Virus record (IMG/VR): IMGVR_UViG_3300044639_000560
Coordinates: 1-50,117 of that record
DNA length: 50,117 nucleotides
From: a virus
Strand: one strand, 5' to 3'
Below the pieces are notes generated by a model, which was not told where the DNA came from, ran no database searches, and saw only the letters and a program-made list of their open reading frames with translations. Below, piece after piece: positions 224 through 36,352 of this stretch; the first letter of the stretch is position 1, and each line of letters begins with the position of its first letter. Position numbers and translations under genes: made by a program.

Positions 224-385
224 ATGGACAAGAATCAGATCCAGTATGAGCATCTAATGACAATGGTTGAATCTGCCGTTGAAAGTGCACAGCCATTCCC
301 CGGTCAATTCTCTCACAAGACGGAATGGCTGATCGATGACGTGTCTAAGTACCTGAGAGAGATCTTAGAGCTTCCGCCTATTTAA
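224..385 (+). CDS. Small acidic hypothetical protein (53 aa)
   Basis: The predicted protein starts MDKNQIQYEHLMTMV. ATG 224 was chosen over an in-frame ATG at 200 because GAGGG sits just upstream of it and because a TATAAT at 192-197 would place the transcript start after 200. It is mostly hydrophilic with no signal peptide or membrane segment. It is the only plus-strand gene in the left 40 kb, diverges from the left-edge gene, and its 3' end overlaps the convergent end of the 1791-aa gene by 8 bases. No family is recognised. A solitary plus-strand gene with its own promoter often acts early or as a moron, but that is inference. Confidence 0.5.
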   Translation: MDKNQIQYEHLMTMVESAVESAQPFPGQFSHKTEWLIDDVSKYLREILELPPI

Positions 386-3300
386 CCTTTGGGTTCTTCT
401 CCATCCAGTTCATTACGCTATCCAGCCACTCTTGGTTAGCAACCTGACCGGGATGCCCTAACTGGAACGACCTCGGATCACCAAACTCTGGAGTGCCCGC
501 AGCCCTTCTCGCATTATAGAATGTTGGGAACATTACACTTCTTGGTGGCTGTGCAGCGAACCCGCCAACATACTTCCCTGCTAATTGAGTATTGTAAGAG
601 GTATGAGCTGGTGATGCCGGGTCTGTGATGATGCCGCCAGCTGGATCCATCTTTGCTATGGTGAACCCTGAAGAGTGAAGCGGCGCATCCAGAAGTTCGG
701 GCTCAGCTATCGCTGCCCGAGTAGTTGCGAGATCTGGAAACCCTGCATTAGCATTTTGCTTTAACCCCATCTCGGCAACAAACGCATGCCGTAGCGCACC
801 ATTGTCATTAAGCATGTCCCGTGTCTCTGGGTGCAATAACCCCTTGAACTCTGGACGCACTGCCTTAACGTTCCTATCGAATTCCTTTACAGCCTTTTTG
901 GTAATCTTGCTATTTCCGATCTGCTCCAACAGGCTATTAGCCATCATCGTTGAGAAGTCACCGCTAGGGGTGTGCGCCATTGCAACATACGGCATGTAAA
1001 CATCTCTACCGCTTTCGGCTGCACCTCTTATTTGCTTGGAAATGCTCGATGCCGCCCCCTTGTCTGCAGCCCATGCGGCTCCATATGGTGCATGCGATCT
1101 CATGAAGTCTGCGCCACCCTCAAGCTGAACCGGGATATCTAACTTGGCTTCACCAATATGGGTTAACAGTGACCCTGCAGCGGTTCTATCTCCAAGTGCA
1201 GGAACGATGTAGCTTCCATACAGCTCCTCTGGAGAGATTGCTTTTCGGGGAACCATTGGAGTGTTTGGAACTCTAGTTGATGTCATCTCTGACAAGGGCT
1301 TCACCAACTTAATTCCGCCACCTATGGGGTGATAGAGCCCAGCTGCTATATTCTCAGCTTTACTAGGTCTGGCCTGTTCTTGATATTGAACCAGCTTCTT
1401 TGCCAACCAGTCTCCGCCAGCACTGGCAATCTTACCGCCCTTGGCATACTTAAACTTAACGATCTGATCCTCGACTGGAACATCATATTTAGGAATGTTT
1501 GCCGCACGTTCTGCAGGAGTCATATTCATGCGGGCTTCAGTTAGGCGGGACTCAACCTCTCCAGCATGGCGATGATAAGCTTCCCGTGCAGCGTCATCTT
1601 GCGAGGGCTTGAGGCCAGCTTTAACCATGCCATCAAATATTTTCTGCGCTTCTGGGTTTAGAGTGTTTGGCCCTATTGTCCCTTTTGATGAGAACATTGC
1701 ATCTGGACTGCTACCTCTTGCCCAACCCTCTTTATCTTGAATCGCATGCTGCATCTCATGCAATAGTTCAGGCTTTCCAGAACGTCTATCGAGGGTAATG
1801 TATGCAGAAGAACCGCCGCCGGATGGGCTAAACACCCCGCCAGCATGGGGAATATCCTCAACATGGGTGAGCATATTTTTTAGATGCGGATATGCCTCAT
1901 AAAGCCTTGGATTGTCATAGAACTCCTTGGTATGTCCATAGAAGTTCTTGTCTTGCAGACTGGACAGTGCTTCAGCTTCGTTTCGGGCCAAGTCATGACC
2001 CCTTGTCCTATCAGCTAGATAAACTGATCCAGAAATTGGCTCCCGACCGTACTTATCTGCAAATATCTTGCTCGCATCAGCAGTCCCGATGCTATGAGTA
2101 TCCATGATCTCTTTTAACTTAGACGCATGAACGGCCTCATCATATTGCTTCTGCTTAAATGCTTGGCTCCCAAGACTCGCTGCATTCGCAGAATATGGCG
2201 CAACACTGTCATCAATCTCTTGCCGCCACTTTTTGTCTGGCCCTTTAAAGTTCTTTGTCGCTGCCCATATTTTTACAGGGCTCTCGCCAGCACTCTCCAT
2301 CTCAGCGGCTTTGGCAGCTGCCGGAGAGTCCCAAGTCTGTGATTTCTCGCCAACAAACATTCTCTGGCGAGGGTCAATCACCTTACTACCCAGAACCCCA
2401 GTACCAGTATGAATCTGTCTAGCGGCTTCTTTAGCAGCACCTTTGACAAATGCCTTGCCAGCTTGACCAAGTAATGTAGCCCCACCAGCGGCATCAACAA
2501 CTTCTGGCTTGAGCGTTATCGTCATGCCCCTGCCAGTTGTCGGAGGTACTCTATAGCTCGCGTCTTCAGCTACCTTACGCAATGACTCGACACCTGTTAG
2601 ATCAGCACCAGTCATCCCGCCAAATATTGGATCTCTCTCTGGAACCGTATACTTCCCGGCGAACTCAGAGATAGGCTTCAGGAGATGAGCGGCCAGACCA
2701 AGTATCTTATTTTGTGGCGTGTTCCTAACCTCGCCCTGATATGCCCTATTCTTAGCAACTTCGCCGCCCTTGGCATACTTCTTCTTGAGCTTATTGAGCT
2801 CTTCGGATATTAACTCTGGGGCAAGCACTCCGCCAACACCTACACCAGCAAGAATGTCTGCTTCATGTCTACGGAAAGGATCGAAGGCGGCGAAGCGGGA
2901 GCGTACTTGAGATGGATTAAATACCGCAATCGTTGGGTAATCATCTCCAGTAGACTCACGCAACCTCATTGAGTCATACCCTTTGCTTTTTAGATACCCA
3001 ACCACTGGCTTAGTCTCATACATCATGTAATTGCCGCCAGTATAAAGATCTTGAACGTCTGAAGGTATGTTGTTTTTCTCAAAGAACTCCGACATTACAT
3101 GCATGTCAGTTTCCGGGTTGAATGTTTTGTTGGCATCAACCTTCATCGGATAAACCGTTGAGTGCATTTTGTCTGGGATCATAGCGCCCCCAAATTCTTT
3201 TAGTTGATCAGCTCTGGATAATGCATTTCTGCGGTCGTACTCCTTATTGAACTCATCACCCTCCAATCGCTGAAGAGCGTCATCAGAATACAAATGCTTT

Positions 3301-5753
3301 GTCCGTATTCCACGATATACATCTTCAGCTGACTTTACTTCTTGCTCTGCCTGCCCACCAGAGCGTTGTTGCAACTTGCCCTTACCAATCCACTTACTTG
3401 CAAATTCTGGGGACTCGGTTACAAAAGCCAAGTTATCGTCATACCCCGGTTTGAATGCCCCCGTTATGTCTTGCTTTGTCCCGTGGTACACATCTTTTTT
3501 ACCCATAGCATTAGCTCTGTCTATATAGGTATTATCTGCAGGCAGTCCTAGTCCGCCCTTATCCTTTGGTAGAGCTGCATTCTTCTGAGCTGTATCATGC
3601 AATATCTCCCACTCTGTCTTGGCCCGGTTAACCTTGGACTCAATAGACTTTGCCGCACGTTCTGCAAGCTTCTTAGCAATACCACCCTTGGCATACTTAG
3701 CTGGCTCCTCCTGCGATAGACCAAGCCCAACTGGGGCAGCTGGTGCAACAGAGAATAGCTTCTGACCTTGGGATAGGATCTTATCCTTTGTGCTCTGTGG
3801 GATATCTACAGAGAATGCGTTACCAACACGCCGAGACTCTGCCCAGCCCATTGGAGTAAGTGATGGATTCTTTCCTGTATCCAGCTCGGGTATGAACGTC
3901 CTACCAGCTCCCACCCCAAACTCTTTGGATGAGTACTTATCCACAAGCTTCGGGAGCATCTCGTCATAGAACTTAACCATCCCCGCAGCCTGCTTCGTCC
4001 CCATCTTCAGGTTTTCACCAGCGAGACTTACCATTGGGGGGTCAATCTCATCCCATGATGGATCTTGCTTTGGCCTATTATCAATCTGGCTCACAATCTT
4101 CTCGGCCTGATCCTTGCCCACATGAGCAGCCAGATCCTCCCTAGATATACCTTTTGAATCAAGAATAGGGGTCTTGTCTTTTATGCCCTGTATGTCAAAC
4201 TTTCCATTTGGACGTAAGGTGGCAGTGATCTCATCAACATAATTCGCCATGTTGTATCGCTTGATATGCTCTGCAGCTGGGGCAAATGAAACCTTGTCAT
4301 ATCCCTCTCTGGCTGCAGTATCGAATACATGCTTAACAACTAAGTCGGGCCATGTTGACTTGAATGGAGCGTCAGGAACCTTGCGGCTAAGCGCATCGCG
4401 CTGCTCTCTATATGATCTAAGAGTGTTGAGTGTTGGATCGGTACGGTCAATGTTTGACTGATTACTAATATCCCTTGGCAATGCGCCGGGAACTGATTCG
4501 CCAGTTTTTGGATCTACTTCAATCACTCTTGCCGACCACGACACTGGAGAACTTCTTGCGGCGGCCTGCTTTATAGCATCAGCATCAGTTCCACTAAAGC
4601 CAGAGTATGTTCCCCTCCACTGTCCATCCTCATCGAGCACCCTTAACTCTCGCTGCCCACTATGTGGAAATTCCCTAGCTGTCTCAACAGTCCACTTAGA
4701 GATATCGAGGCCACGGCCACCCTTTGGGTCAAAGGCCAATACCTTGTCATGGTAATTGTTGACAAGATCTTGGTCGAGTAGATTCGATCTGATAACTCTC
4801 CCCGGAACAAAGTGATTCTTAATCTCTTCTTCGTTTACGCCCTCTCTTCCAACTCGATAGATATCCTTATTGAGCTTTGCAAGGGCAGCGTCATCTTTAG
4901 GCGTTAGGTATCCGGCATCTGCAGGGATCTCCTTGAGGGCATCCGCAACCGATATCCCCTTCTCTCTGGCGAGAATTTTCGCTTGGCCCTTTCTTGCTTC
5001 TCGTCCCTGCTGATGCCAATCAGACTGCATCTCTTCGACATGCAGGATCTTCTCTCCTTCAGGCCCTGCCCTATCTGTCATCCTCACATGGGCAACAACC
5101 TGCGGCTCGTCCCAGTGACCGTTAGAATACTCATTGTCACGCGACAATGAAGCCTCCGCTTCCGCCTCACTGTTTCTTTTCTTAATGAGATGGTCTATGC
5201 GGTCAGAGAAGGCGCTCGCATCCTCACCGTTATCGATTCTTAAACGATACGCTCTAGTGAGCTCTTCTATCTCTGGCTTATACTTATTAGATACATTCTT
5301 AAATATATCCTCTTTTGATAGTGCTGGCATCTGCAGCTGTAACAGATGCTCCCTGTAATTCTTCCCGCCCGGTGTTTGCAGGGTTGCATCACCAAACTTT
5401 GCATGGTTATTGTTCCACGCGCCATCGGGATCTTGCCACTGACGATTTTTCCCGCCGAACTTACTAACCTTCTCAATTACATTGATCTGTGGGATTGGAT
5501 TCTTTTCAAGATGGCGAGCCAGCTGCTCTTTGGTGACTGACGGCTTATTCGCTAGGAACTGGGGGACGCGGCGGAGATCCATCTCCTCCTTCTTGACCCC
5601 GGAAGATTGAATCTGCTTGAGCATCTGCTCACCAGTACCCTTCTGCTGTTTAAGGGTCTGGATTGCATTGTCGATAGATGAGACAAACTTTTTGGCGACA
5701 GCGCCGCCAATAGCGTACTTCTGCCTTAACTGATTAAGCTCACTGTTGCTCAC
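378..5753 (-). CDS. Large polyvalent virion protein: LPD, ART-like and zincin-like modules
   Basis: A 1791-residue multi-module protein, probably packaged and ejected with the DNA. Four KYA(K/I)GG motifs, at about residues 12, 686, 992 and 1434, divide it into four modules. Module 1 has the 'EEMQSDWHQQGR' region (about 240) typical of large polyvalent protein-associated domains. Module 2 has DVYHGTK (about 754-760) and a C-terminal IAVFNPSQVRS stretch, as in ADP-ribosyltransferase-like domains of polyvalent proteins. Module 3 has LLHEMQHAIQ, with HEMQH at 1332-1336, a zincin metallopeptidase signature. Module 4 is unrecognised. The start is GTG at 5753 inside the end of the upstream gene (14-base overlap), with GGAGAG upstream. 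It is the last gene of the leftward block. Enzymatic activity is inferred from motifs only; the virion role comes from context. Confidence 0.8.
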   Translation of the reverse strand: MSNSELNQLRQKYAIGGAVAKKFVSSIDNAIQTLKQQKGTGEQMLKQIQSSGVKKEEMDLRRVPQFLANKPSVTKEQLARHLEKNPIPQINVIEKVSKFGGKNRQWQDPDGAWNNNHAKFGDATLQTPGGKNYREHLLQLQMPALSKEDIFKNVSNKYKPEIEELTRAYRLRIDNGEDASAFSDRIDHLIKKRNSEAEAEASLSRDNEYSNGHWDEPQVVAHVRMTDRAGPEGEKILHVEEMQSDWHQQGREARKGQAKILAREKGISVADALKEIPADAGYLTPKDDAALAKLNKDIYRVGREGVNEEEIKNHFVPGRVIRSNLLDQDLVNNYHDKVLAFDPKGGRGLDISKWTVETAREFPHSGQRELRVLDEDGQWRGTYSGFSGTDADAIKQAAARSSPVSWSARVIEVDPKTGESVPGALPRDISNQSNIDRTDPTLNTLRSYREQRDALSRKVPDAPFKSTWPDLVVKHVFDTAAREGYDKVSFAPAAEHIKRYNMANYVDEITATLRPNGKFDIQGIKDKTPILDSKGISREDLAAHVGKDQAEKIVSQIDNRPKQDPSWDEIDPPMVSLAGENLKMGTKQAAGMVKFYDEMLPKLVDKYSSKEFGVGAGRTFIPELDTGKNPSLTPMGWAESRRVGNAFSVDIPQSTKDKILSQGQKLFSVAPAAPVGLGLSQEEPAKYAKGGIAKKLAERAAKSIESKVNRAKTEWEILHDTAQKNAALPKDKGGLGLPADNTYIDRANAMGKKDVYHGTKQDITGAFKPGYDDNLAFVTESPEFASKWIGKGKLQQRSGGQAEQEVKSAEDVYRGIRTKHLYSDDALQRLEGDEFNKEYDRRNALSRADQLKEFGGAMIPDKMHSTVYPMKVDANKTFNPETDMHVMSEFFEKNNIPSDVQDLYTGGNYMMYETKPVVGYLKSKGYDSMRLRESTGDDYPTIAVFNPSQVRSRFAAFDPFRRHEADILAGVGVGGVLAPELISEELNKLKKKYAKGGEVAKNRAYQGEVRNTPQNKILGLAAHLLKPISEFAGKYTVPERDPIFGGMTGADLTGVESLRKVAEDASYRVPPTTGRGMTITLKPEVVDAAGGATLLGQAGKAFVKGAAKEAARQIHTGTGVLGSKVIDPRQRMFVGEKSQTWDSPAAAKAAEMESAGESPVKIWAATKNFKGPDKKWRQEIDDSVAPYSANAASLGSQAFKQKQYDEAVHASKLKEIMDTHSIGTADASKIFADKYGREPISGSVYLADRTRGHDLARNEAEALSSLQDKNFYGHTKEFYDNPRLYEAYPHLKNMLTHVEDIPHAGGVFSPSGGGSSAYITLDRRSGKPELLHEMQHAIQDKEGWARGSSPDAMFSSKGTIGPNTLNPEAQKIFDGMVKAGLKPSQDDAAREAYHRHAGEVESRLTEARMNMTPAERAANIPKYDVPVEDQIVKFKYAKGGKIASAGGDWLAKKLVQYQEQARPSKAENIAAGLYHPIGGGIKLVKPLSEMTSTRVPNTPMVPRKAISPEELYGSYIVPALGDRTAAGSLLTHIGEAKLDIPVQLEGGADFMRSHAPYGAAWAADKGAASSISKQIRGAAESGRDVYMPYVAMAHTPSGDFSTMMANSLLEQIGNSKITKKAVKEFDRNVKAVRPEFKGLLHPETRDMLNDNGALRHAFVAEMGLKQNANAGFPDLATTRAAIAEPELLDAPLHSSGFTIAKMDPAGGIITDPASPAHTSYNTQLAGKYVGGFAAQPPRSVMFPTFYNARRAAGTPEFGDPRSFQLGHPGQVANQEWLDSVMNWMEKNPKVK

Positions 5754-8700
5754 TTTTTAGTCTCTCCATTATTTGGTCAACATCGACTGCAGGCTCTGGG
5801 TTGTATTCAGCTGATGGTTCTGGAGCTGAAAGTATACCCGTTTCAGCGGAGATTCCTCTCTCTGTCATACCTCTAACAGACTGTCGCTTCGCAAAGTCCT
5901 TGCCGTGTGCCTCTAATAGATTTAAAGCATGTCCAACCTCGTTCGGGCTCCCAGCCTTGAGAATGTGTGCAACATTCCCGGCGGTCTTCTCATCAAGACT
6001 CGCACCAGACTGGATGAACTTCAGAACCTTACCGATGATGGTTCCAGTTCCGCCAATTGACATGTCAACTGCGTCCCCGGCAACATCCAGAAGCCTGCTT
6101 GGGTTCTTCAGATCTTGCATGGCAGCTGCCTTGTTGGCGGTACGACTACCCCTGACGATGTCTTGAGCGTTCCTGAACAGCTCGCTCTCACGAGTAAGGG
6201 CGTTCTCGAACAGTTGATAGTCTTCAGGCTTGTCGAACAGTACCGACAATCTCTTACGGGTAGATGGCGAGCCTATGACGCGCTGTGCTGCGTTGATTTG
6301 CTGCGGGCTATCCATTACCTTAGACAGAATCGATTGTGCAACACCAGCCCTGAGAGCGTCTCTCTCGCCGCCAGACATCCCGGCGACAAGGTTCTTGGCC
6401 TGCTCTGGGAGCATCTTTGGTGATAGGTAGTCATTCTTGCCGAGCTGCAGGGCATCAAGAACCTCACGGTCGCCAGCATACTTAGCCCGCGCCTGTGCAT
6501 ACTTGGATACGCCATCTACTGTGGTTGCCTCATCGATGGTGCTGACAAAGGCCCGCTTCAGATCTTTAAGGGCAGAAGCCTCGGCCTTAGACATCCCAGA
6601 TCCGCTGTAACCTTTATCAATCATCGCATCGATCCCGCGCTTGACGTAGTCAAGGGTGCGGACATCTGGGAGACTCACAAGAGTGGCAACGCCATCAGGA
6701 GTGACTTGATACATTTGCTTGAGCATGAACCTAGATGGATCTTCGCCCCTCAACTCTGCAGCACGAGCCTCTTTACTGGCTATCGACTGAGCCTCTACAT
6801 ATGCCTTCTTGAAGGTGTCATCATGCAGAACATGTGTAATGCGTGGGTCATTTATCTCGCCATGGGCATAAGCCTCATCATAGGCATTAGATGCATTTGA
6901 TCTGAGCTTGCCAACTAAGTTGCTCTCTTCCTTGGTGAAGTCAACGCCCTTGCCGATGTGCTGCAGTGCGCGAGCTCCAACACGCTCACGACCCTCATCC
7001 AGACGCTGGTTAAGCTTCTCGCCAAGTATCTTGCCGCCCGAGCCGGGATAGGTAACAACGGCCTCACCCAGAGACTTGAGTGCTGGACTGGAATCCATCA
7101 GCATTGATGGAACGCCAAGCGCACGATCCTTCGCCATCGAAGTACGCAGGTCTTGTGGGTTAATCGAGTCCCTTCCCATTGCCTGCAGAACCTTCTCTGC
7201 GGCACGTCTCTCGGATGCATCTGGTGAGCTCAGAAGCCTTGAGTAGATCTCTCTACCAGCTGAGCCAGCTCCAGTTGCGGCCTTGGACAGAACTGGCCCA
7301 GCAACCGCTGATGTCAATCCAGTCTCGACCCCAGATCCAAGGCGGTTAGACATATCACCCTCACCCGCTCCCATCCCGCTAACGAATCCAACGCCGCCGG
7401 ATGTTCCGGCAAGCTTGGCAACCGGGCTCTGGAATGCTTTAGCAACCCTTCCTACGGTCTGACCAGCCCTAGCCACACCGAGTGGCTGAGCTCCGGGGAT
7501 AGCAAAGCTTGCCGCCGTTGGGATAATTCCGCCAACGACTTCAGCTCCGAGGGAGGTGAGTGGATACTGATCAGAGAACTGCTTGTATGATGCCCGCTCT
7601 TCAGCAAGGAGATCCTCATACGGCCTGTTCTCTAGCTTAGATCTAACTCTGGCAATGGCCTCATCACCGAAGCCAAGGGTAGCGCCTTGCATTCCAGCGC
7701 GACCAATATTGGCGGGTGTTAATCCACCACCATCCGCCATATGAACAGCACCGCCACTTGCGAATCCTCTACGTCCTCTCTTTAGTGTCTCCTGATCTTG
7801 GCTGCTAACTTCTTCTGGAGCGTCCTCAATTACAGCATCATCTGGGCTACGGCTTGAATAAGAGCCAGATTCGATATCTTTTAGCTTTTCTTGGTGACGC
7901 GCCACTCTTCGAGCTGCAAGCCTTTGAGCCTCTTTAAAGATCTTCTCCCTTGCTCTAGGGGTCTGAGTAATTGCCCCCTGAATCTCCAACAGAATCTTGC
8001 GCTCACCTTCCGTTGGGTTTCCGCCAAAGGTTGCTTTCAAGCTGGCTAATGCGTTACCTTTTAATATGTTATCCAGCTCTGTCGTTGCATTCTGTGCATC
8101 ACTTGAGCTGATTCCGGGGATTACTGAGCCAACAAATTCCCGTGCCCCAGCTGTTCGGCCAGTATATGCAATCGGGCTCAGTTTAATAGCCCGCTCAAGA
8201 TTCCCGATAATATCCCTCCCGGTATCTATCTTATCTATCGTGTCGCTCTTCATCTTTATTTCTTGATTGCTGAGCTTGGTTGGGATCAAGCTCTTTGGAG
8301 CTGCCTCTGGAGGAATACGATTAGCCTTGGTTATTGCCTGCTGTGCAATTCTCTTCTGTGACTGAGTTGCATTCGGGTCTTCAAGTACAGCCGCCAAACG
8401 CATAATCTCTGGCGGGTTTGTTTGCTGACCACGGTTTGGGTTGGACAGATAATCAAGCCTAGATTGAATAACAGGAATAGATGGGTGGCCTTTAGGCAGG
8501 CCATTCAATGCCTCTGTCAGCTGCATAACTTCAGGAACGCGACCCCTGTTTATCTGGGCGAGCTTGGTTACAACACCGATCTGGTTCTCTAATCCCTCAA
8601 CGTGCTGATCGATCCCGGCAGTCTGATACTTCTGCTGAAGATCTTGCAATGCCCACTGCTGTTGCTGGCGGCGTTCTGCCTCGTTACCAGCAGCCTCTGC

Positions 8701-9003
8701 GACATTACCCATCGTCTCACCAAACCCACCAGTGCGGGTTGGCTTGCCAAATGCCGCCGCTATTTTGAATAGCGAGACGGCATCAGTCATCGGATCTTTA
8801 ATCCTGCTCAGCAACCTCTCCTGTGCCTGATCCAATACGTCACGCCTCTGCTTAGATCTCTGCTGAAGCGCAGGGCCATACTCTCCGAGCATCTTAGATA
8901 GCTCTGAGGAGTATGGGGTTGTCCCAGTTAGGGTGGTGGCTCCTAGATCATCTGGATGATCTCCATATACTGTCGTTGGCTCTAAACCTTGAGTGTTTGG
9001 CAT
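5740..9003 (-). CDS. Internal virion / DNA-ejection-type protein (1087 aa)
   Basis: A long, largely helical, Ala/Gln/Arg-rich protein. It has a Gly/Ala/Val-rich hydrophobic stretch around residues 480-580 (for example EVVGGIIPTAASFAIPG), which resembles the membrane-active segments of podovirus ejection proteins. The first 200 residues contain Q-rich helices. FASGGAVHMADGGG at about residue 410 is a copy of the motif that separates modules in the neighbouring 1791-aa protein. It starts at ATG 9003 with GGGATT upstream and overlaps the next gene by 14 bases. Its position between a 328-aa virion protein and the polyvalent protein fits the ejection cluster. No catalytic motif such as a lytic transglycosylase was recognised. 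Confidence 0.65.
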   Translation of the reverse strand: MPNTQGLEPTTVYGDHPDDLGATTLTGTTPYSSELSKMLGEYGPALQQRSKQRRDVLDQAQERLLSRIKDPMTDAVSLFKIAAAFGKPTRTGGFGETMGNVAEAAGNEAERRQQQQWALQDLQQKYQTAGIDQHVEGLENQIGVVTKLAQINRGRVPEVMQLTEALNGLPKGHPSIPVIQSRLDYLSNPNRGQQTNPPEIMRLAAVLEDPNATQSQKRIAQQAITKANRIPPEAAPKSLIPTKLSNQEIKMKSDTIDKIDTGRDIIGNLERAIKLSPIAYTGRTAGAREFVGSVIPGISSSDAQNATTELDNILKGNALASLKATFGGNPTEGERKILLEIQGAITQTPRAREKIFKEAQRLAARRVARHQEKLKDIESGSYSSRSPDDAVIEDAPEEVSSQDQETLKRGRRGFASGGAVHMADGGGLTPANIGRAGMQGATLGFGDEAIARVRSKLENRPYEDLLAEERASYKQFSDQYPLTSLGAEVVGGIIPTAASFAIPGAQPLGVARAGQTVGRVAKAFQSPVAKLAGTSGGVGFVSGMGAGEGDMSNRLGSGVETGLTSAVAGPVLSKAATGAGSAGREIYSRLLSSPDASERRAAEKVLQAMGRDSINPQDLRTSMAKDRALGVPSMLMDSSPALKSLGEAVVTYPGSGGKILGEKLNQRLDEGRERVGARALQHIGKGVDFTKEESNLVGKLRSNASNAYDEAYAHGEINDPRITHVLHDDTFKKAYVEAQSIASKEARAAELRGEDPSRFMLKQMYQVTPDGVATLVSLPDVRTLDYVKRGIDAMIDKGYSGSGMSKAEASALKDLKRAFVSTIDEATTVDGVSKYAQARAKYAGDREVLDALQLGKNDYLSPKMLPEQAKNLVAGMSGGERDALRAGVAQSILSKVMDSPQQINAAQRVIGSPSTRKRLSVLFDKPEDYQLFENALTRESELFRNAQDIVRGSRTANKAAAMQDLKNPSRLLDVAGDAVDMSIGGTGTIIGKVLKFIQSGASLDEKTAGNVAHILKAGSPNEVGHALNLLEAHGKDFAKRQSVRGMTERGISAETGILSAPEPSAEYNPEPAVDVDQIMERLKSEQQ

Positions 9004-9011
9004 AATCCCTC

Positions 9012-9998
9012 TTATTTAATTTTACTAAGAGCTGTAGCAGTTACCGCAGCATTTGCCAGAGATGCAAGACCTGATGGCTGATAGACCTGTGCAGGAGCAA
9101 CATTCTCTGTAGCTGTCCGACTAGGTATCTCAAGCCCACGAAGGGTCTGGTTCAAGAATGAAACCATATCCTGCGGCCTATCGCGCTGAGCCAAGAAGTC
9201 TTTGTATGCCCAATCAAGATTGGCTTGGTTTTGCATCTGCTGTTGACCGCCAACCGCTTCCTGCGCGGCCAATCCAGTAAGCCCAAGTTGCTGCTGCAAT
9301 CCACCAAGAGTCTCTTGCTGACGAGCGATATCAAGATATCTGTTCAAGTCTGATGTCTGCAGAGCTCCAGAAGCCTGACCCAGTTGGGCCAATCTATTCT
9401 GATCTGAAGTGAACTGAGCGCCAGCCTGAGTATACCCACGCTCAAGTGCTGCAGATTGCTGGGCCATCGTTGACTCTTGGATATCTCTCAATCCTTGAGC
9501 CAATGCCTTACCAGACCTGCTTCCGCCAAATGTGCCGCCAGCTGTGAACTGCCCCTGAACGGTTGGAATAAGGTTCTCAGATACTTGCCTCTTAGCCAGA
9601 TCCCCAAGCCTATTAACTACATTCTCAGTATACGGATTCAGGTAGTCTGAAACCCCGCTAGGTATTGTCCGTGAGGCTTGATTGAAGTATGGCTGAGCCG
9701 CAGAAAGGCCAGTGGAGCTCCCGGCAGCATTTATAGCTTGAGCTGCCTGATTAAACGCTGGCTTCCAAGAGTCCGCAGCAGCATCAACTCCAGCAAACGC
9801 CTTCTGCTGCTCTGGAGCGAACCCGGCAACCCTATTCAATCCGTAGGGTTGATAAGGCGATGATGCAATCGAATTAGCCTTTTCAATCAGGCCCTGCGTG
9901 TAATCTGAGTACCACGCAGGCTGAGTAGTTGCCGCCACTCCATACGTCTTGATAGACGCTGGAGGAGCACCATTAAATAGAAAGTCTGAGATTGACAT
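9012..9998 (-). CDS. Virion / ejection-cluster protein (328 aa)
   Basis: A Gln/Ala/Gly-rich helical protein with the segment DYLNPYTENVVNRLGDLAKR (about 116-135) followed by FTAGGTFGGSRSGKA. I recognise this arrangement from many phage genes placed among internal or tail structural proteins. The remainder is repetitive Q/A/L helix (QQETLGGLQQQLGL). It starts at ATG 9998 with GGGAT upstream, 9 bases before the downstream 1087-aa gene ends its leader. No enzymatic motif is visible. A structural or DNA-ejection role is inferred from context and composition. Confidence 0.6.
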   Translation of the reverse strand: MSISDFLFNGAPPASIKTYGVAATTQPAWYSDYTQGLIEKANSIASSPYQPYGLNRVAGFAPEQQKAFAGVDAAADSWKPAFNQAAQAINAAGSSTGLSAAQPYFNQASRTIPSGVSDYLNPYTENVVNRLGDLAKRQVSENLIPTVQGQFTAGGTFGGSRSGKALAQGLRDIQESTMAQQSAALERGYTQAGAQFTSDQNRLAQLGQASGALQTSDLNRYLDIARQQETLGGLQQQLGLTGLAAQEAVGGQQQMQNQANLDWAYKDFLAQRDRPQDMVSFLNQTLRGLEIPSRTATENVAPAQVYQPSGLASLANAAVTATALSKIK

Positions 9999-10007
9999 AT
10001 CTGATCC

Positions 10008-12140
10008 CTATTTTAGATATTTAGATGGTGCTTTTGCGTTAGGGGATATCTTCCCTTTAGCTAGAGCCTTACCCTTTTGCTTTCTGATTGCTGCCCGCAT
10101 CGCATCCAGCTTCTTAGCGCCAGCATCACTCGAGCCATTCCCAAGCAATCCAACAGACTCAGCGTCCATCACATACTCGCCATTGGACAGCATTGCGGGA
10201 ACATCATCAGATCTGCCATCGGCAATCTTACCGCCACCTGCATAACGACCTTGCTGTCTCTGCATCAGCATCTGTTGATGTAGCCGCTGCTGTTGGCGGA
10301 TACGTTCCTGTTGGGTCATCGCCCCACCAAGAGTTCCTGCCGCTTGTGAGGGAGCAACTGACTGGGGAACAGTTCCATAACCATAGTACTTGTAGTTAGG
10401 ATTCTGCTTGCTTGGGGCTACCATCTGACTCAATGTTCCCGGCTGACCTTGTTGCGGGGTTCCGGGCCGTACTGGCTGACCTTGTTGACCTTGTTGCGGA
10501 GTTCCGGGCCTTGGAGGAGCGCCCTTCATCGACAATGCGGTAAGGGGTGCGAGCTGCTGCAGCATCTGTTGACGATCAGCCTCAGACATCGGGCCACCTT
10601 GAGGAAGCGCTCCAGAAGATCCCCAAGGCATTGATCCTTGGTAACCTTGGGCAACTGGCATCTGCTGAACGTTAGGATCTGCATATTCAACAACAGATCC
10701 ACCGTCTGCATAACCTCGCAGACCCGCTCCAGCACCTTGCATCATCATGCGCTCACGATCTGTAGGGTTAACACTTCCACCGTCCGCATATCCTTGCATA
10801 GCCTGCAATCCTTGGCCTTGTAGCTGTGGCATTGGTTGGGCGGCATAAGGATCATTGTTGTATGGATCTTGATTTACAGGGCCACCATCAGCCATCCTAA
10901 CGTACCCACCCCTTGCAGCTGCAGGAACGGGCGTATACATAGGATCGCTCAAGAACTTAAACTCTCCACCGCCTGACTCAGCGTATTTGTTAAGGTCGTC
11001 ACCATACTGGTTGCGTGACTGGCTCATGGCGTACTGATCTAACGGCTGATCAAATGTTGCGTTATATCTGGAAAGGTCTGGTGCTCCAGATGGCGCTCCA
11101 GATGGTGCTCCACCAGTTTCGCCAAATGCACCCAGCTTGTCTAAAGCTAGAATTCCAAGACCAGACTTGATTGGATTATCCATAACCCACTTGGCGCCAT
11201 CCCATAGCATATTGCCGGATGTCGCCCCTGCCTCTCCAGATGCACCCTTTGTTGTGGCGCTTGATATATCTCCTATAGCAGCCGCCCCATCTGCCCCATA
11301 GCTTCTCTCTACAATTGAAGCTGGGACTTCTTGCGTCATGCTCATCATTTCTTTTACTGTCATCGGCGGATTCGCAGCCCCCTCTGCAGCAGCCCCCTCT
11401 GCAGCAGCTGTGTTGGCTGATCTTGCAACATTCGTTACTGGGACAGATTCAATAGTCGCAACCGAAGGAAGTGACAGAGATGGGTCTGCTGACAATGATG
11501 CGGTTCTGCTATTCCTACCAACTTCTGCGCCAACATCCCTTCCAGCGTTTTTAAAAGCTGCTGTGGATGTGTCAAATGCTGCGCCAAGATCAGATGCTGC
11601 TGGAGCGCCAATCTCTAGGTTCTTAATAAAGGTTCCTGTTTTTGGATTTATTGTGCTGCCAAGATCTCCATAGAGAGAGTTTGCGAGGGGATTAGTGACT
11701 CCGGGTTTAGCAACTTGCCCAAGATCCCCCCAAAGAGCCTTTTCTGAAGCAGTCATTGTCTTTCCTACAGTGCTGCCAAATGCTTTACCAGCAAGTGCGC
11801 CACCAGCATAACCAGTAGCGCCAGCTATCACACCAGACTTCAATGCATCCCCAAACTTCTCGCCCTCTGCCAAGCCTACGCCAGCATTCATCACGCCAGA
11901 CATTACGGAGCCAGCAATTGGGCCTACGCCGGGGATAAAGTACGGAGCTACTGTTGCAATAAACCTGATTGGATCATCAGCAATCGGCTTTATCACGTCC
12001 TTATAGATGTGTTTGCCTGCATCCTCAAACCCATGAGCTAGGCTGTTGTCTATATGACCAAAGTCACCCTTAACTACGTCCTTAACTACGTTAACAACCG
12101 TCTTAACAACATCCTTTACCAAATGAACAATAACTGCCAT
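10008..12140 (-). CDS. Gly/Gln-rich internal virion protein with YADGG repeats (710 aa)
   Basis: The N-terminus is an amphipathic Val/Lys helix (VKDVVKTVVNVVKDVVKGD). A Gly/Ala/Pro-rich hydrophobic segment follows at about residues 65-130. The middle is low-complexity Ala/Ser, and the 400-630 region is Gln/Pro/Gly-rich with MADGGPV and two GYADGGSV copies (about 407-480). The C-terminus has YAGGGKI followed by DDVPAMLSNGEYVMDAESV (about 630-660), a tail-end motif I have seen repeatedly in phage ejection or tape-measure-like proteins. It starts at ATG 12140 with GGAG six bases upstream. It is likely a membrane-interacting ejected protein; function is inferred. Confidence 0.6.
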   Translation of the reverse strand: MAVIVHLVKDVVKTVVNVVKDVVKGDFGHIDNSLAHGFEDAGKHIYKDVIKPIADDPIRFIATVAPYFIPGVGPIAGSVMSGVMNAGVGLAEGEKFGDALKSGVIAGATGYAGGALAGKAFGSTVGKTMTASEKALWGDLGQVAKPGVTNPLANSLYGDLGSTINPKTGTFIKNLEIGAPAASDLGAAFDTSTAAFKNAGRDVGAEVGRNSRTASLSADPSLSLPSVATIESVPVTNVARSANTAAAEGAAAEGAANPPMTVKEMMSMTQEVPASIVERSYGADGAAAIGDISSATTKGASGEAGATSGNMLWDGAKWVMDNPIKSGLGILALDKLGAFGETGGAPSGAPSGAPDLSRYNATFDQPLDQYAMSQSRNQYGDDLNKYAESGGGEFKFLSDPMYTPVPAAARGGYVRMADGGPVNQDPYNNDPYAAQPMPQLQGQGLQAMQGYADGGSVNPTDRERMMMQGAGAGLRGYADGGSVVEYADPNVQQMPVAQGYQGSMPWGSSGALPQGGPMSEADRQQMLQQLAPLTALSMKGAPPRPGTPQQGQQGQPVRPGTPQQGQPGTLSQMVAPSKQNPNYKYYGYGTVPQSVAPSQAAGTLGGAMTQQERIRQQQRLHQQMLMQRQQGRYAGGGKIADGRSDDVPAMLSNGEYVMDAESVGLLGNGSSDAGAKKLDAMRAAIRKQKGKALAKGKISPNAKAPSKYLK

Positions 12141-12600: not shown

Positions 12601-13725
12601 TTAGACCCTCGTATCGAATATCGATGCTGCATAAATATTGCCCATTCCAGATGCTAAGCTTAATAGCAAGCCATCAGGGACACCAGACTCTTTCGACAAG
12701 AAAATATCGTCATCTTCCGTTCTATTTTTAATAGCTGGAATGATCCCCTTCTTGATGTCGTCAAGAATTAATCCTGTTTCAACCAAACTACTCGCGGCCA
12801 ATGTATGCCCAATATGCTGCTTATATGATGTTGCTATGAAATCATCGAGGACTGTTGTGAGGGCGTTCCTCTCGGCCTTGTTATTGGTAAGCGTTCCAGT
12901 TCCATGCGTCTTCACCAGCTTAATGTCTTTTGCCTTCTTCTTGGCGAACTCAAGAGCCCCTGTAATAGCCCTCTGGTATCCCTGACCATCCTCTCTCTGT
13001 CCAATTGGGTTGGGGTTCTGCTCTGCCGAAATGTATGCGCTAAGAAGCTCAGCCTTTGGCTGAACAGCGTTCTTATTAACAGCGGTCTCGGTCTCAAATA
13101 TCATAATCCCTGCCCCATGACCCAGAATAAACCCACAGTTCTTGCTATCAAATGCAGATGGAATTCCGCCCTGATCTTCAGATGTTGACAGTAACGATGC
13201 CTTCATCTGGCCGAAGTACTCTAGCGTTTGCTTAGAAGACTGATCCTCTGCTCCAACTATAATCACTCTATCGAACCCCAAGTTATCCATGAGGTTCTTC
13301 GCATCCATCATGCACTTAATCCCTGACGCACATGCACTGGCATCAGTCGTTACATAATCATATGCCTCAAACATAGCCGCCAGTCTTCCAGCGTATACGT
13401 TGGTCATTGTCAACATTCCAAGCTTGTAAACATAATCAAGCTCAGTCTGAACCTCTTTGTTCTTTGACTTGCCGCCAGCCCATCCCTGTGACCCTGCCGC
13501 CAATAAGAATGCGGTCTTACCGTCCACCGGGTTGTCCTTCACATAATCAACAATCTCTTTTACAACTACCTTGTTCACCAGCTCATGCGGAACATAAGAC
13601 AGGCCGGACTGAACCCTTGAGAATACCTCTGGTATCCAATGCATCCTCTGTGGATAAGTGATATTTTCTATTAACCTTGTCTCTGTTGTGCAGACCGTTT
13701 TGTATTGAGTTAAGTATGTTTTCAT
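12601..13725 (-). CDS. Beta-ketoacyl-ACP synthase (KAS II/FabF-like condensing enzyme)
   Basis: A thiolase-fold condensing enzyme that would join an acyl group to a malonyl-ACP-type extender. With ATG 13725 as residue 1 (374 aa) the Cys-His-His triad is complete: nucleophile C132 in DASACASG, H274 in KTHGTGTLTNN and H307 in KQHIGHTLAASS. The conserved Lys302 sits five residues before H307, as in FabB/FabF. AFDSKNCGFILGHGAG matches the family's PFDxxRDGFVxGEGAG, with His replacing Glu. It is slightly shorter than typical FabF (about 410 aa). An in-frame TTG at 13746 is the longer alternative; ATG lies one base after the ACP stop. A KAS with all catalytic residues inside a phage structural operon, directly coupled to an ACP, is unusual. 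The substrate is unknown. Confidence 0.85.
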   Translation of the reverse strand: MKTYLTQYKTVCTTETRLIENITYPQRMHWIPEVFSRVQSGLSYVPHELVNKVVVKEIVDYVKDNPVDGKTAFLLAAGSQGWAGGKSKNKEVQTELDYVYKLGMLTMTNVYAGRLAAMFEAYDYVTTDASACASGIKCMMDAKNLMDNLGFDRVIIVGAEDQSSKQTLEYFGQMKASLLSTSEDQGGIPSAFDSKNCGFILGHGAGIMIFETETAVNKNAVQPKAELLSAYISAEQNPNPIGQREDGQGYQRAITGALEFAKKKAKDIKLVKTHGTGTLTNNKAERNALTTVLDDFIATSYKQHIGHTLAASSLVETGLILDDIKKGIIPAIKNRTEDDDIFLSKESGVPDGLLLSLASGMGNIYAASIFDTRV

Positions 13726-13726
13726 A

Positions 13727-14011
13727 CTAAAGCTTAATACTCGCAATCGCCTCGTCTATCGTCTTCTGGTCGCTTGTCGCATTGGCCTCATACATCTCAA
13801 AGAACTGCCGAGGCGTTGCTGGCATCAATGTCTTTGAAACCCCTTCTGAGACACCATATATCTCTGAAAAGTAAATGCTAAGCATGATCGCATCAAGGCT
13901 ATCTATTCCTAGATCGCCAAGCATTTCATCCAGCGTACTTGACTGTGAATCTTCTCTACTTGCGGGTTTTGCAGCTTTCACGATTTTGTTGAAAAGCTCT
14001 AACTTATCCAC
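13727..14011 (-). CDS. Acyl carrier protein (94 aa)
   Basis: A small acidic four-helix carrier protein. LGDLGIDSLDAIMLSIYF (about 31-48) contains the D-S-L motif, in which Ser38 would carry 4'-phosphopantetheine, added by a host transferase because none is seen here. Length fits the ACP family (70-100 aa). The start is GTG 14011 with GGGAG about 9 bases upstream. The stop is one base from the ATG of the KAS gene, so the two are translationally linked and probably partners. Host FabB/FabF or other acyl enzymes could also use it. Confidence 0.85.
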   Translation of the reverse strand: MDKLELFNKIVKAAKPASREDSQSSTLDEMLGDLGIDSLDAIMLSIYFSEIYGVSEGVSKTLMPATPRQFFEMYEANATSDQKTIDEAIASIKL

Positions 14012-24090: not shown

Positions 24091-24720
24091 TTATCTTGGG
24101 ATTATTTTACCAAATTTTGGCAACTTAGAGTAGGAAGGAACAGCCTTTCCACCACGTTTCAGACCATTATGTGCTTGTGACGCTGGTTTGTCAGCATGCT
24201 TTTTGATCTCTTGATCAATTAGCTTCTTGTCAGCAGCCATGTCTTCAGCTGCAGATCCGCCATGGCCCATCTTCCGTGACTCAGACATAGCAATTGCAAG
24301 CGCCTGCTTTGGGTTCTTAACGACATTGCCGTCCTTGCCAGAGTGGAGAGCTCCCTTCTTGAACTCGGACATTACGAGCCCGACCTTCTTTTGAGCCTTG
24401 CCCTTTACAGGGCCACCAGCTGCACATCCCGCCTCTTCCCTCTCGGCCCGGATCATCTTAGCTGGAGCTCCAACCTTCTTCAAGAGTGAGATCTCACGAA
24501 TGACCATACCATGCGGCTCGGCATCACCCTCTCTCTCAGCCATCTCATGCCTCAGAACATCACGAGGGGCATTGGCTCGCTCAAGGAAAGCGATCTCATC
24601 GCCACCCTTCTTAGCCTTGCCACCCCTAGCGTACCCCTTAACGTTCTGCTTTCCGGCGCTGCCCGTGTAACCATTCTCAGATCCAAAACTGAAGTCGCCG
24701 TACTTTAATGTCTTTCCCAT
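24091..24720 (-). CDS. Basic DUF6496-like protein with YARGG motif (209 aa)
   Basis: A Lys/Gly-rich basic protein. KKVGLVMSEFKKGALHSGKD followed by NPKQALAIAMSESRKMG (about 111-150) matches the DUF6496 type often seen in phages and bacteria, function unknown. GYARGGKAKKGGDE at about residue 29 and later GGPVKGK and LKRGGKAV resemble the aromatic-A-x-G-G motifs in the ejection proteins. It starts at ATG 24720. Strong basicity suggests DNA association or packaging inside the head, as inference. Confidence 0.6.
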   Translation of the reverse strand: MGKTLKYGDFSFGSENGYTGSAGKQNVKGYARGGKAKKGGDEIAFLERANAPRDVLRHEMAEREGDAEPHGMVIREISLLKKVGAPAKMIRAEREEAGCAAGGPVKGKAQKKVGLVMSEFKKGALHSGKDGNVVKNPKQALAIAMSESRKMGHGGSAAEDMAADKKLIDQEIKKHADKPASQAHNGLKRGGKAVPSYSKLPKFGKIIPR

Positions 24721-31166: not shown

Positions 31167-31586
31167 TTAGATAAACGCACGAATCTTCGTGGGGTCTCCC
31201 GTAATTTTGCCGATAACGTCCAGATCATTGTAAATAACAAACTCGATCTCTTCTTCGCCAAACCTTACAGTCCATCGGTCACCGCCATACTTCGGTGTCC
31301 TAACATAATCGCCGATCTGACACCAAGCCCCTTCAGGCCACAGTTCCATCGTGTTGCGATTCTTAAACGCCAGTGATCCAACTCCGATCACCTTCGATAC
31401 CTGAGTGTTGCTCGCTTCTGTCTTGCGAACATCTTCGGGAATGAAGATACCAGACTTGGTCTGAGCTCTTGCCCTGCGAATCTGAACCATTATGCGAGAT
31501 CCGAGCGGCAAAATGCCCGGATCAACTTCTGGGAATGATTCGTCCGCCGTGGCGTGTGATAAGTCTATTGGTGTTTCGAGTAGCAT
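31167..31586 (-). CDS. GroES-like co-chaperonin (139 aa)
   Basis: Resembles Cpn10: VDPGILPLGSRIMVQIRRAR, then KSGIFIPEDVRK (mobile-loop region), VIGVGSL, EGAWCQIGDYVRTPKYGGDR and FVIYNDLDVIGKITG. The order of strands and the final (E/N)xDIxGxI motif fit the GroES family, though it is longer than host GroES (about 97) and has an insertion near the middle. Like T4 gp31 it would work with host GroEL to fold capsid protein; no GroEL gene is present. A perfect GGAGG Shine-Dalgarno precedes ATG 31586. Confidence 0.7.
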   Translation of the reverse strand: MLLETPIDLSHATADESFPEVDPGILPLGSRIMVQIRRARAQTKSGIFIPEDVRKTEASNTQVSKVIGVGSLAFKNRNTMELWPEGAWCQIGDYVRTPKYGGDRWTVRFGEEEIEFVIYNDLDVIGKITGDPTKIRAFI

Positions 31587-36030: not shown

Positions 36031-36352
36031 CTTTCTGCTTTATTGCCAGCAGATCCTTCATGAGCGTGTTAGCGAAGTCCAGAACTTCGACTTGTATAGG
36101 GCCCTGATCAACGCCAGTGACCTCCGTGCGTGATAACTTAGGCACATGGTACTCAATCATGTCTGTGTAGCACTGGAACGCTTTTAAAGGGCCTTCTGTC
36201 TCAGCGATAGCGTCCAACCAGATCTGCACTCGATGCGCGTTGCCATCCACGAACCGTGCGATAGCCTCTCTAGCGTTAGCTGTAGACTTGTTAACGACCC
36301 CTTTGGGTCGTCCGGGGCCTGCTCCTTGTATCTTGTGTTTTTTTAATGCCAT
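36020..36352 (-). CDS. terS: Small terminase subunit-like protein (110 aa)
   Basis: The N-terminus AGPGRPKGVVNKSTANAREA (an AT-hook-like GRPKG) followed by IARFVDGNAHRVQIWLDAIA and CYTDMIEYHVPKLSRTEVTG is a layout I know from small terminase genes that precede TerL. It would recognise the packaging site. The stop overlaps TerL (11 bases) and the ATG overlaps the upstream winged-helix gene by 10 bases. Confidence 0.75.
   Translation of the reverse strand: MALKKHKIQGAGPGRPKGVVNKSTANAREAIARFVDGNAHRVQIWLDAIAETEGPLKAFQCYTDMIEYHVPKLSRTEVTGVDQGPIQVEVLDFANTLMKDLLAIKQKDAK

Follow-up and report, generated by a model that had tools for sequence, protein, structure and literature searches.

We analysed the whole 50,117-base stretch of an IMG/VR virus record, hereafter the window. 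The record carries the genes of a tailed phage, with matches to Terminase_6N (E 7e-21) and to a portal family (phrog_1216, E 1e-15). On the minus strand, positions 378-5753 form a single uninterrupted frame of 1791 amino acid residues, which starts with GTG and is preceded by a ribosome-binding-like GGAGAG. Its product, hereafter the chain, appears to be a polyvalent protein of five domains; a 100% identical copy of this protein is present in two other IMG/VR contigs.

The start of the chain gene and the stop of the gene upstream share 14 bp. The two genes upstream (5740-9998, minus strand) encode proteins of 1087 and 328 residues. The 328-residue protein resembles a DNA ejection protein, and the matches of the two genes are to phrog_4287 (DNA ejection protein, E 4e-7) and phrog_5880 (a phage family without known function, E 1e-48). 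At the other end, a small gene on the plus strand (224-385), which we call M4i, encodes an acidic protein of 53 residues; it is convergent with the chain gene and overlaps, at its own end, the stop of the latter.

Domain layout of the chain

The first-pass annotation had proposed that the frame consists of four modules, each beginning with a KYA(K/I)GG motif, and that it arose by the fusion of four separate ejected effectors. All four motifs are present in the one open frame: KYAIGG at residues 12-17 (5703-5720) and KYAKGG at residues 686-691 (3681-3698), 992-997 (2763-2780), and 1435-1440 (1434-1451), all on the minus strand. Profiles made from relatives divided the chain into five domains, M1, M2, M3N, M3C, and M4. 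The module-wise build was thus retained, but the third module is composed of a leader (M3N) plus an LPD23-zincin unit (M3C). The modules do end shortly before the next motif, M1 near residue 670 (from relatives and AlphaFold), M2 at about 975-985, and M3C at about 1432 (from relatives). The motif, however, fits the description of a joint or tail element better than that of a module start. M4 begins about 45 residues past the fourth copy. Two of the alignments, A1 and A5, had too much diversity for scans of the collections, and closer subsets took their place.

M1 (3744-5696, minus strand) spans residues 20 to 670 approximately, or to about 682 by the profiles, and has an invariant E-QSDW at residues 241-246. 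In the AlphaFold model of M1 alone (pLDDT 78), the fold ends near residue 670 and a disordered tail follows. The domain occurs in at least 544 places in IMG/VR, and M1 of the window had no match in Pfam, PHROGs, PDB sequences, or PDB folds. The motif [EQ]E[MIL]QSDW, seen in the IMG/VR loci L128-L207, has more than 500 occurrences in viral contigs and corresponds to no Pfam family; M1 is a candidate for a named domain.

M2 (2799-3620, minus strand; residues 712-985 approximately) is the ADP-ribosyltransferase (ART)-like module. M2 alone matched Pfam ART-PolyVal (PF18760) with E 8e-5, and eight of 13 M2 members matched it (E up to 0.05, best 5e-10); the score of the window copy (23.8 bits) is nevertheless under the curated cut-off of 31.2. 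In the alignment, H72 of the YHG motif (YHGT at residues 756-759 in the window) is invariant. The last-strand column, which we take to be the site of the catalytic glutamate, has T in the close subfamily of the window and E or Q in other members. Because of the score below the cut-off and the T at this column, catalysis by M2 in the subfamily of the window is doubtful.

M3N (2367-2735, minus strand; residues 1007-1129) is the leader, which in other proteins is N-terminal and stands ahead of varied cargos. M3C (1458-2363, minus strand; residues 1131-1432 approximately) contains LPD23 (residues 1132-1185) and a putative zincin metallopeptidase. The zinc-binding motif HEMQH that had been noticed earlier is at residues 1332-1336 (1746-1760, minus strand), and a downstream glutamate is at residue 1399, so that M3C has both the HExxH and the downstream glutamate ligand by which a zincin is recognised. 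Among 29 aligned sequences, the HE-QH and GE ligands (H217, E218, H221, and E284 of the alignment) are invariant; LPD23 was detected in 26 of them, the DUF6782 metallopeptidase in 12, and Peptidase_M78 in three.

M4 (381-1301, minus strand; residues 1485-1791 approximately) had no match in Pfam or PHROGs. AlphaFold predicted a compact fold, with pLDDT above 90 across most of the module residues 50-357, and a disordered motif and basic helix. This fold is without a PDB counterpart: fold searches of the PDB with M4 and M1 gave nothing under E 0.02, and profile searches of the PDB with all four modules gave no credible match. Among predicted viral structures, 17 phage proteins of up to 1489 residues are counterparts of M4. 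One of them, from a Flavobacterium phage, is annotated as 'Structural protein', and a literature search found no structural proteome of that phage. Similarity of M4 to a YTH/EVE fold is no more than a lead, since the recurrent matches were weak (E 0.5 and above).

The predictions for single modules, made with M1 alone and M4 alone, gave folded domains with low-confidence linkers on their flanks, and the surroundings of motifs 2 and 4 are such linkers. The chain is probably not one continuous fold, a reading that rests on the relatives more than on the models.

The joint motif

Copies of K[YF]AxGG were expected at 0.007 per protein in composition shuffles, and none of 5000 shuffles reached four. 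Among proteins that contain the modules, the class [YFHW][AKSR]xGG, widened from [YF]AxGG once variants had been seen, occurs at 18 of 27 joints between effectors (1.6 expected from shuffles) versus one of 27 joints between leader and cargo (Fisher p 1.4e-6); with the strict [YF]AxGG, the counts are 9/27 and 0/27. Near C-termini the motif is likewise enriched, at 3.0 per 1000 residues within the final 50 positions of proteins versus 0.43 in the reversed control; look-alikes of the type 'EGFAxGG' inside the zincin were excluded from the density counts. Because of the bias to effector-effector joints and the C-terminal enrichment, the motif looks like the tail of one module, left behind when the next one joined. 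Copies 2 to 4 have identical codons at K, Y, A, and K (chance probability 0.006, calculated post hoc), which is suggestive of duplicated linkers.

[YF]AxGG is also found in neighbouring proteins of the phage, encoded at 10008-12140, 5740-9003, and 24091-24720 on the minus strand; therefore, the polyvalent chain is not the only place where it occurs. Apart from it, several C-terminal tails recur in the loci L131, L138, L161, L174, L202, and L203, on proteins of differing domain content. They are of the types '..GG..DDLI[IL]EERPL', '..N[PR]DxMFMEL..KRK', and 'NIVERALAVTRRK', and are possibly sorting tags or the shared ends of one ortholog.

Modules in other phages and the small gene beside M4

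A search for the modules as separate genes had been suggested, and every module was found in separate proteins of relatives, in some cases in adjacent genes. Each is present in different phages by tblastn, and many more were found in scans of IMG/VR. The architectures include M1 alone, M4 alone, M3C alone, M2 alone, and M3N-M2, among others. This phage, including the two contigs with the identical protein, is the only one in which the order M1-M2-M3N-M3C-M4 was seen, and no intermediate with three or four modules in this order was found among close relatives. Adjacent genes carry M2 then M1 (L104), M3C-M4 then M1-M2 (L018), M3C then M1 (L022), and M4 then M1 (L149, L161, and others). The neighbouring genes overlap by exactly 4 bp in 15 of 21 pairs and by 1 bp in four; these counts, like the others given here, are drawn from loci fetched by means of the same modules, and redundancy was cut by a simple k-mer filter.

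In 54 of 58 proteins, a set that includes near-identical phages, M3N starts within residues 1-24, and 51 of the 58 genes have a terminase or portal gene at a distance of no more than 1.5 kb. Its cargos are M1, M2, M3C, M4, a PBECR5 RNase-like domain (E about 1e-23), and GNAT. In the chain of the window, the leader is internal; it begins at residue 1007, directly after the KYAKGG at residue 992, and in the alignment this motif falls on the initiator region of the free leaders. The internal M3N resembles, by sequence, the start of a buried gene. The locus L138 has a second internal leader, likewise straight after a joint, YKKGG. M3N had no match in Pfam, the copy of the window and three relatives had none in PHROGs, and a pattern scan found no relative in the genomes of 84,980 bacterial and archaeal species. 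M3N, M1, and M4 appear to be three families absent from the libraries searched. A relationship of the leader to the neighbouring ejection proteins was also considered, and it failed on comparison.

The exchange of cargo can be followed at the DNA level. L097 and L117 are related phages (left flank 86%, portal 93.5%, and leader 83% identical) in which the cargos behind the leader are unrelated, M2 versus M4. The M2 core of the window (2830-3620) is 84% identical in DNA to L097, and the segment with M4 and the downstream gene (186-1366) is 79% identical to L115-L117. The start of a candidate gene for the terminase small subunit (36113-36352) is a 240-bp patch with 87.5% identity to L097, probably a third exchanged patch. 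No further patch was found between the window and these phages, and the terminase large subunit and the portal were without a detectable match; the phages are in other respects unrelated. Both the M2 and the M4 patch end inside the module edges and do not contain the KYAKGG linkers; motif 2, for example, is outside the patch shared with L097. Since what M2 and M4 have in common with other phages is a cargo patch without the linkers, an end-to-end fusion of four genes is too simple a description of the chain.

In the tree of M4, the window copy pairs with that of L117 (support 100/100), and the pair is placed inside a clade of 15 rows (97/91) that otherwise contains short M4 proteins of 370-558 residues. 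This position argues for joining and against splitting. As the DNA patches agree with this nesting among free M4 proteins, joining rather than splitting is the preferred direction, and the assembly of the chain from circulating modules is well supported by the sequence comparisons. Of the fusion that had been proposed, joining is retained, by virtue of the internal leader, the DNA patches, and the nested M4, and the end-to-end joining of four effectors is not; the earlier interpretation as a whole is partly supported.

Relatives of M4i adjoin the 3' end of M4 genes and can be on either strand: some are in line and overlap by 4 bp, and others are convergent. Examples are at 3470-3631 (minus strand) of L117 and 6927-7121 (plus strand) of L216. 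M4i is under purifying selection, with dN/dS of about 0.04 against L115 and about 0.08 against L117. A small acidic open reading frame is present at 25 of 38 non-redundant M4 gene ends versus three of 76 for M1, M2, and M3C (p 1e-12), where the divergent ones were counted by position and character and not all by profile. The small frames at M1, M2, or M3C were found to be only genes for the terminase small subunit and apparent antisense artefacts. M4i lies in the same DNA patch as M4, and this patch is at a different genome position in L115-L117; M4i has probably moved together with M4 between phages. No known family was found for M4i, tblastn gave no relative in annotated phage records, and a promoter scan of the region found no full sigma-70 promoter, with a TATAAT standing upstream. 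In the annotated isolate Roseobacter phage CRP-902, the M4 protein gp72 forms such a pair with the adjacent, convergent gp71, for which the sequence support is weak. The natural reading of M4i is a candidate antidote or chaperone of M4.

Assembly, function, and relation to known systems

We consider it likely that the chain was built by accretion of modules that circulate elsewhere as separate genes or single cargos. Effector genes would stand head to tail and overlap by the 4 bp ATGA, where a single small indel or recombination event would join a pair of genes; the first gene's short [YF][AK]xGG tail would stay at the joint. The chain would be produced late, be loaded into the virion alongside the ejection proteins, and enter the host with the DNA; there the ART-like domain, the zincin, and the two uncharacterised domains would act on host targets, and M4i would neutralise or chaperone M4 in the producing cell. 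Packaging, ejection, effector role, and enzyme activity of the chain, like the effect of M4i, are predictions, that of packaging and injection being made from the genomic context.

In the opposite direction, a long ancestral polyvalent protein, of which the window keeps the old state, would have been split in relatives. Long relatives with several modules do exist (1868 residues in L024 and 2278 in L248). Nevertheless, such fission is very unlikely: 54 of 58 proteins have the leader at the N-terminus, the M2 and M4 patches speak for recent exchange, M4 of the window lies inside the clade of free 370-558-residue proteins, and the five-domain order was seen only here and in the two contigs with the identical protein. 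A further alternative is a self-processing polyprotein, from which four mature effectors would be released by the zincin, or by some other protease, through cuts at the KYAxGG sites; the first-pass annotation had named self-cleavage by the zincin at the GG motifs as a thing to look for. The residues of the zincin are intact, sites 2 and 4 are in linkers predicted to be disordered, and processing of polyvalent chains by zincins has been proposed [Iyer et al. 2017, PMC5512222]. The same motif, however, joins the modules of chains without a recognised M3C zincin (L165, L251, L244, and L099) and occurs in free C-terminal tails and in neighbouring proteins of the virion cluster, and the virion RNA polymerase of N4, which carries such a domain, is packaged uncut [PMC5512222]. 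Self-processing at GG therefore seems improbable to us.

The chain might also be a structural or ejection-channel protein with vestigial enzyme-like domains. It follows genes of the ejection type, a protein with the M4 fold bears the annotation 'Structural protein' in the Flavobacterium phage, and the presumed catalytic glutamate of M2 is not at its usual place. This is unlikely, since the zincin residues are invariant, the leader also carries RNase-like and acetyltransferase domains, and the modules swap freely between phages, unlike core ejection proteins. As for M4i, an unrelated small late gene or an antisense artefact, in place of a functional partner of M4, would agree with the failure to find a known family, a full promoter, or a tblastn relative in annotated phage records, and with its absence at 13 of 38 M4 genes. 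Given its dN/dS of 0.04-0.08 against L115 and L117, its constant position beside M4 on either strand, the ratio of 25/38 to 3/76 (p 1e-12), and the sharing of the M4 patch despite the different genome positions, we regard that explanation as rather unlikely. A wider proposal, which we put forward only tentatively, is that M3N is a new leader family that loads swappable effectors into the virions of phages without prophages in the searched genomes, and that M4 and M4i are a virion-delivered toxin with its own antidote (or a secretion-type chaperone), an effector-immunity pair like those of interbacterial polymorphic toxins.

Polyvalent proteins of phages and conjugative elements were described by Iyer et al. 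in 2017, with the proposal that they are packaged, injected, and at times processed by their own zincins [PMC5512222; for the class, see also PMC9503650]. Each such chain combines between two and 15 domains with unrelated activities, and the genes belong to portal-terminase phages or conjugative elements. The chain of the window has M1, M2, M3N, M3C, and M4, and its phage has the Terminase_6N and phrog_1216 genes. With unrelated effector-type domains including a zincin and an ART-like domain, with LPD23, and with mosaic architectures among its relatives, it most probably belongs to this class. Unlike the described members, it adds a leader and an M4 family without a Pfam or PHROG match, the joint motif, an exchange of cargo that can be seen in the DNA, and a small partner gene.

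The MuF polymorphic toxins of temperate phages [Jamet et al. 2017, PMC5576092] are similar in that a constant phage domain near the packaging genes is followed by a variable effector, as in M3N with M1, M2, M3C, M4, PBECR5, or GNAT. M3N differs in that neither the chain of the window nor ten leader-cargo proteins had a Pfam match to MuF. MuF toxins are tied to temperate phages; for M3N, the pattern scan of bacterial and archaeal genomes found no relative and hence no sign of prophages. By analogy with T4 Alt and other ARTs packaged in the head [PMC5512222; PMC9503650], the ART-like domain would be packaged and injected; unlike Alt, M2 is one of five modules, is under the family cut-off, and belongs to a subfamily in which the presumed catalytic glutamate is not conserved. 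As a large, presumably early-acting phage protein with a zincin domain, the chain also resembles DdrB of P1, which is proteolytically processed before packaging, and the virion RNA polymerase of N4 [PMC5512222]. It differs from both, as neither an RNA polymerase nor a ParB domain was detected and there is no evidence of processing.

Cargo swap behind a common leader, 4-bp overlaps, and a motif that marks the joints give a DNA-level view of how multi-domain phage weapons assemble. The small gene M4i stays beside M4 even where the strand is inverted. If it is an antidote, the phage must protect its own factory from what gets packed. With the chain and the partner of M4, the arming of viruses against bacteria can be studied on a concrete case.

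Two other genes of the window, both on the minus strand, were noted. One (12601-13746), inside the virion gene cluster, is similar to beta-ketoacyl-ACP synthases, an odd site for a fatty-acid enzyme; it matched the FabF model with E 2e-33, well under the curated cut-off, and the Pfam C-terminal domain with E 8e-16. The other (31167-31586) has 29% identity, over most of its length, to a region of Roseobacter phage CRP-902 annotated as co-chaperonin GroES, and is probably a phage-encoded GroES near the portal.
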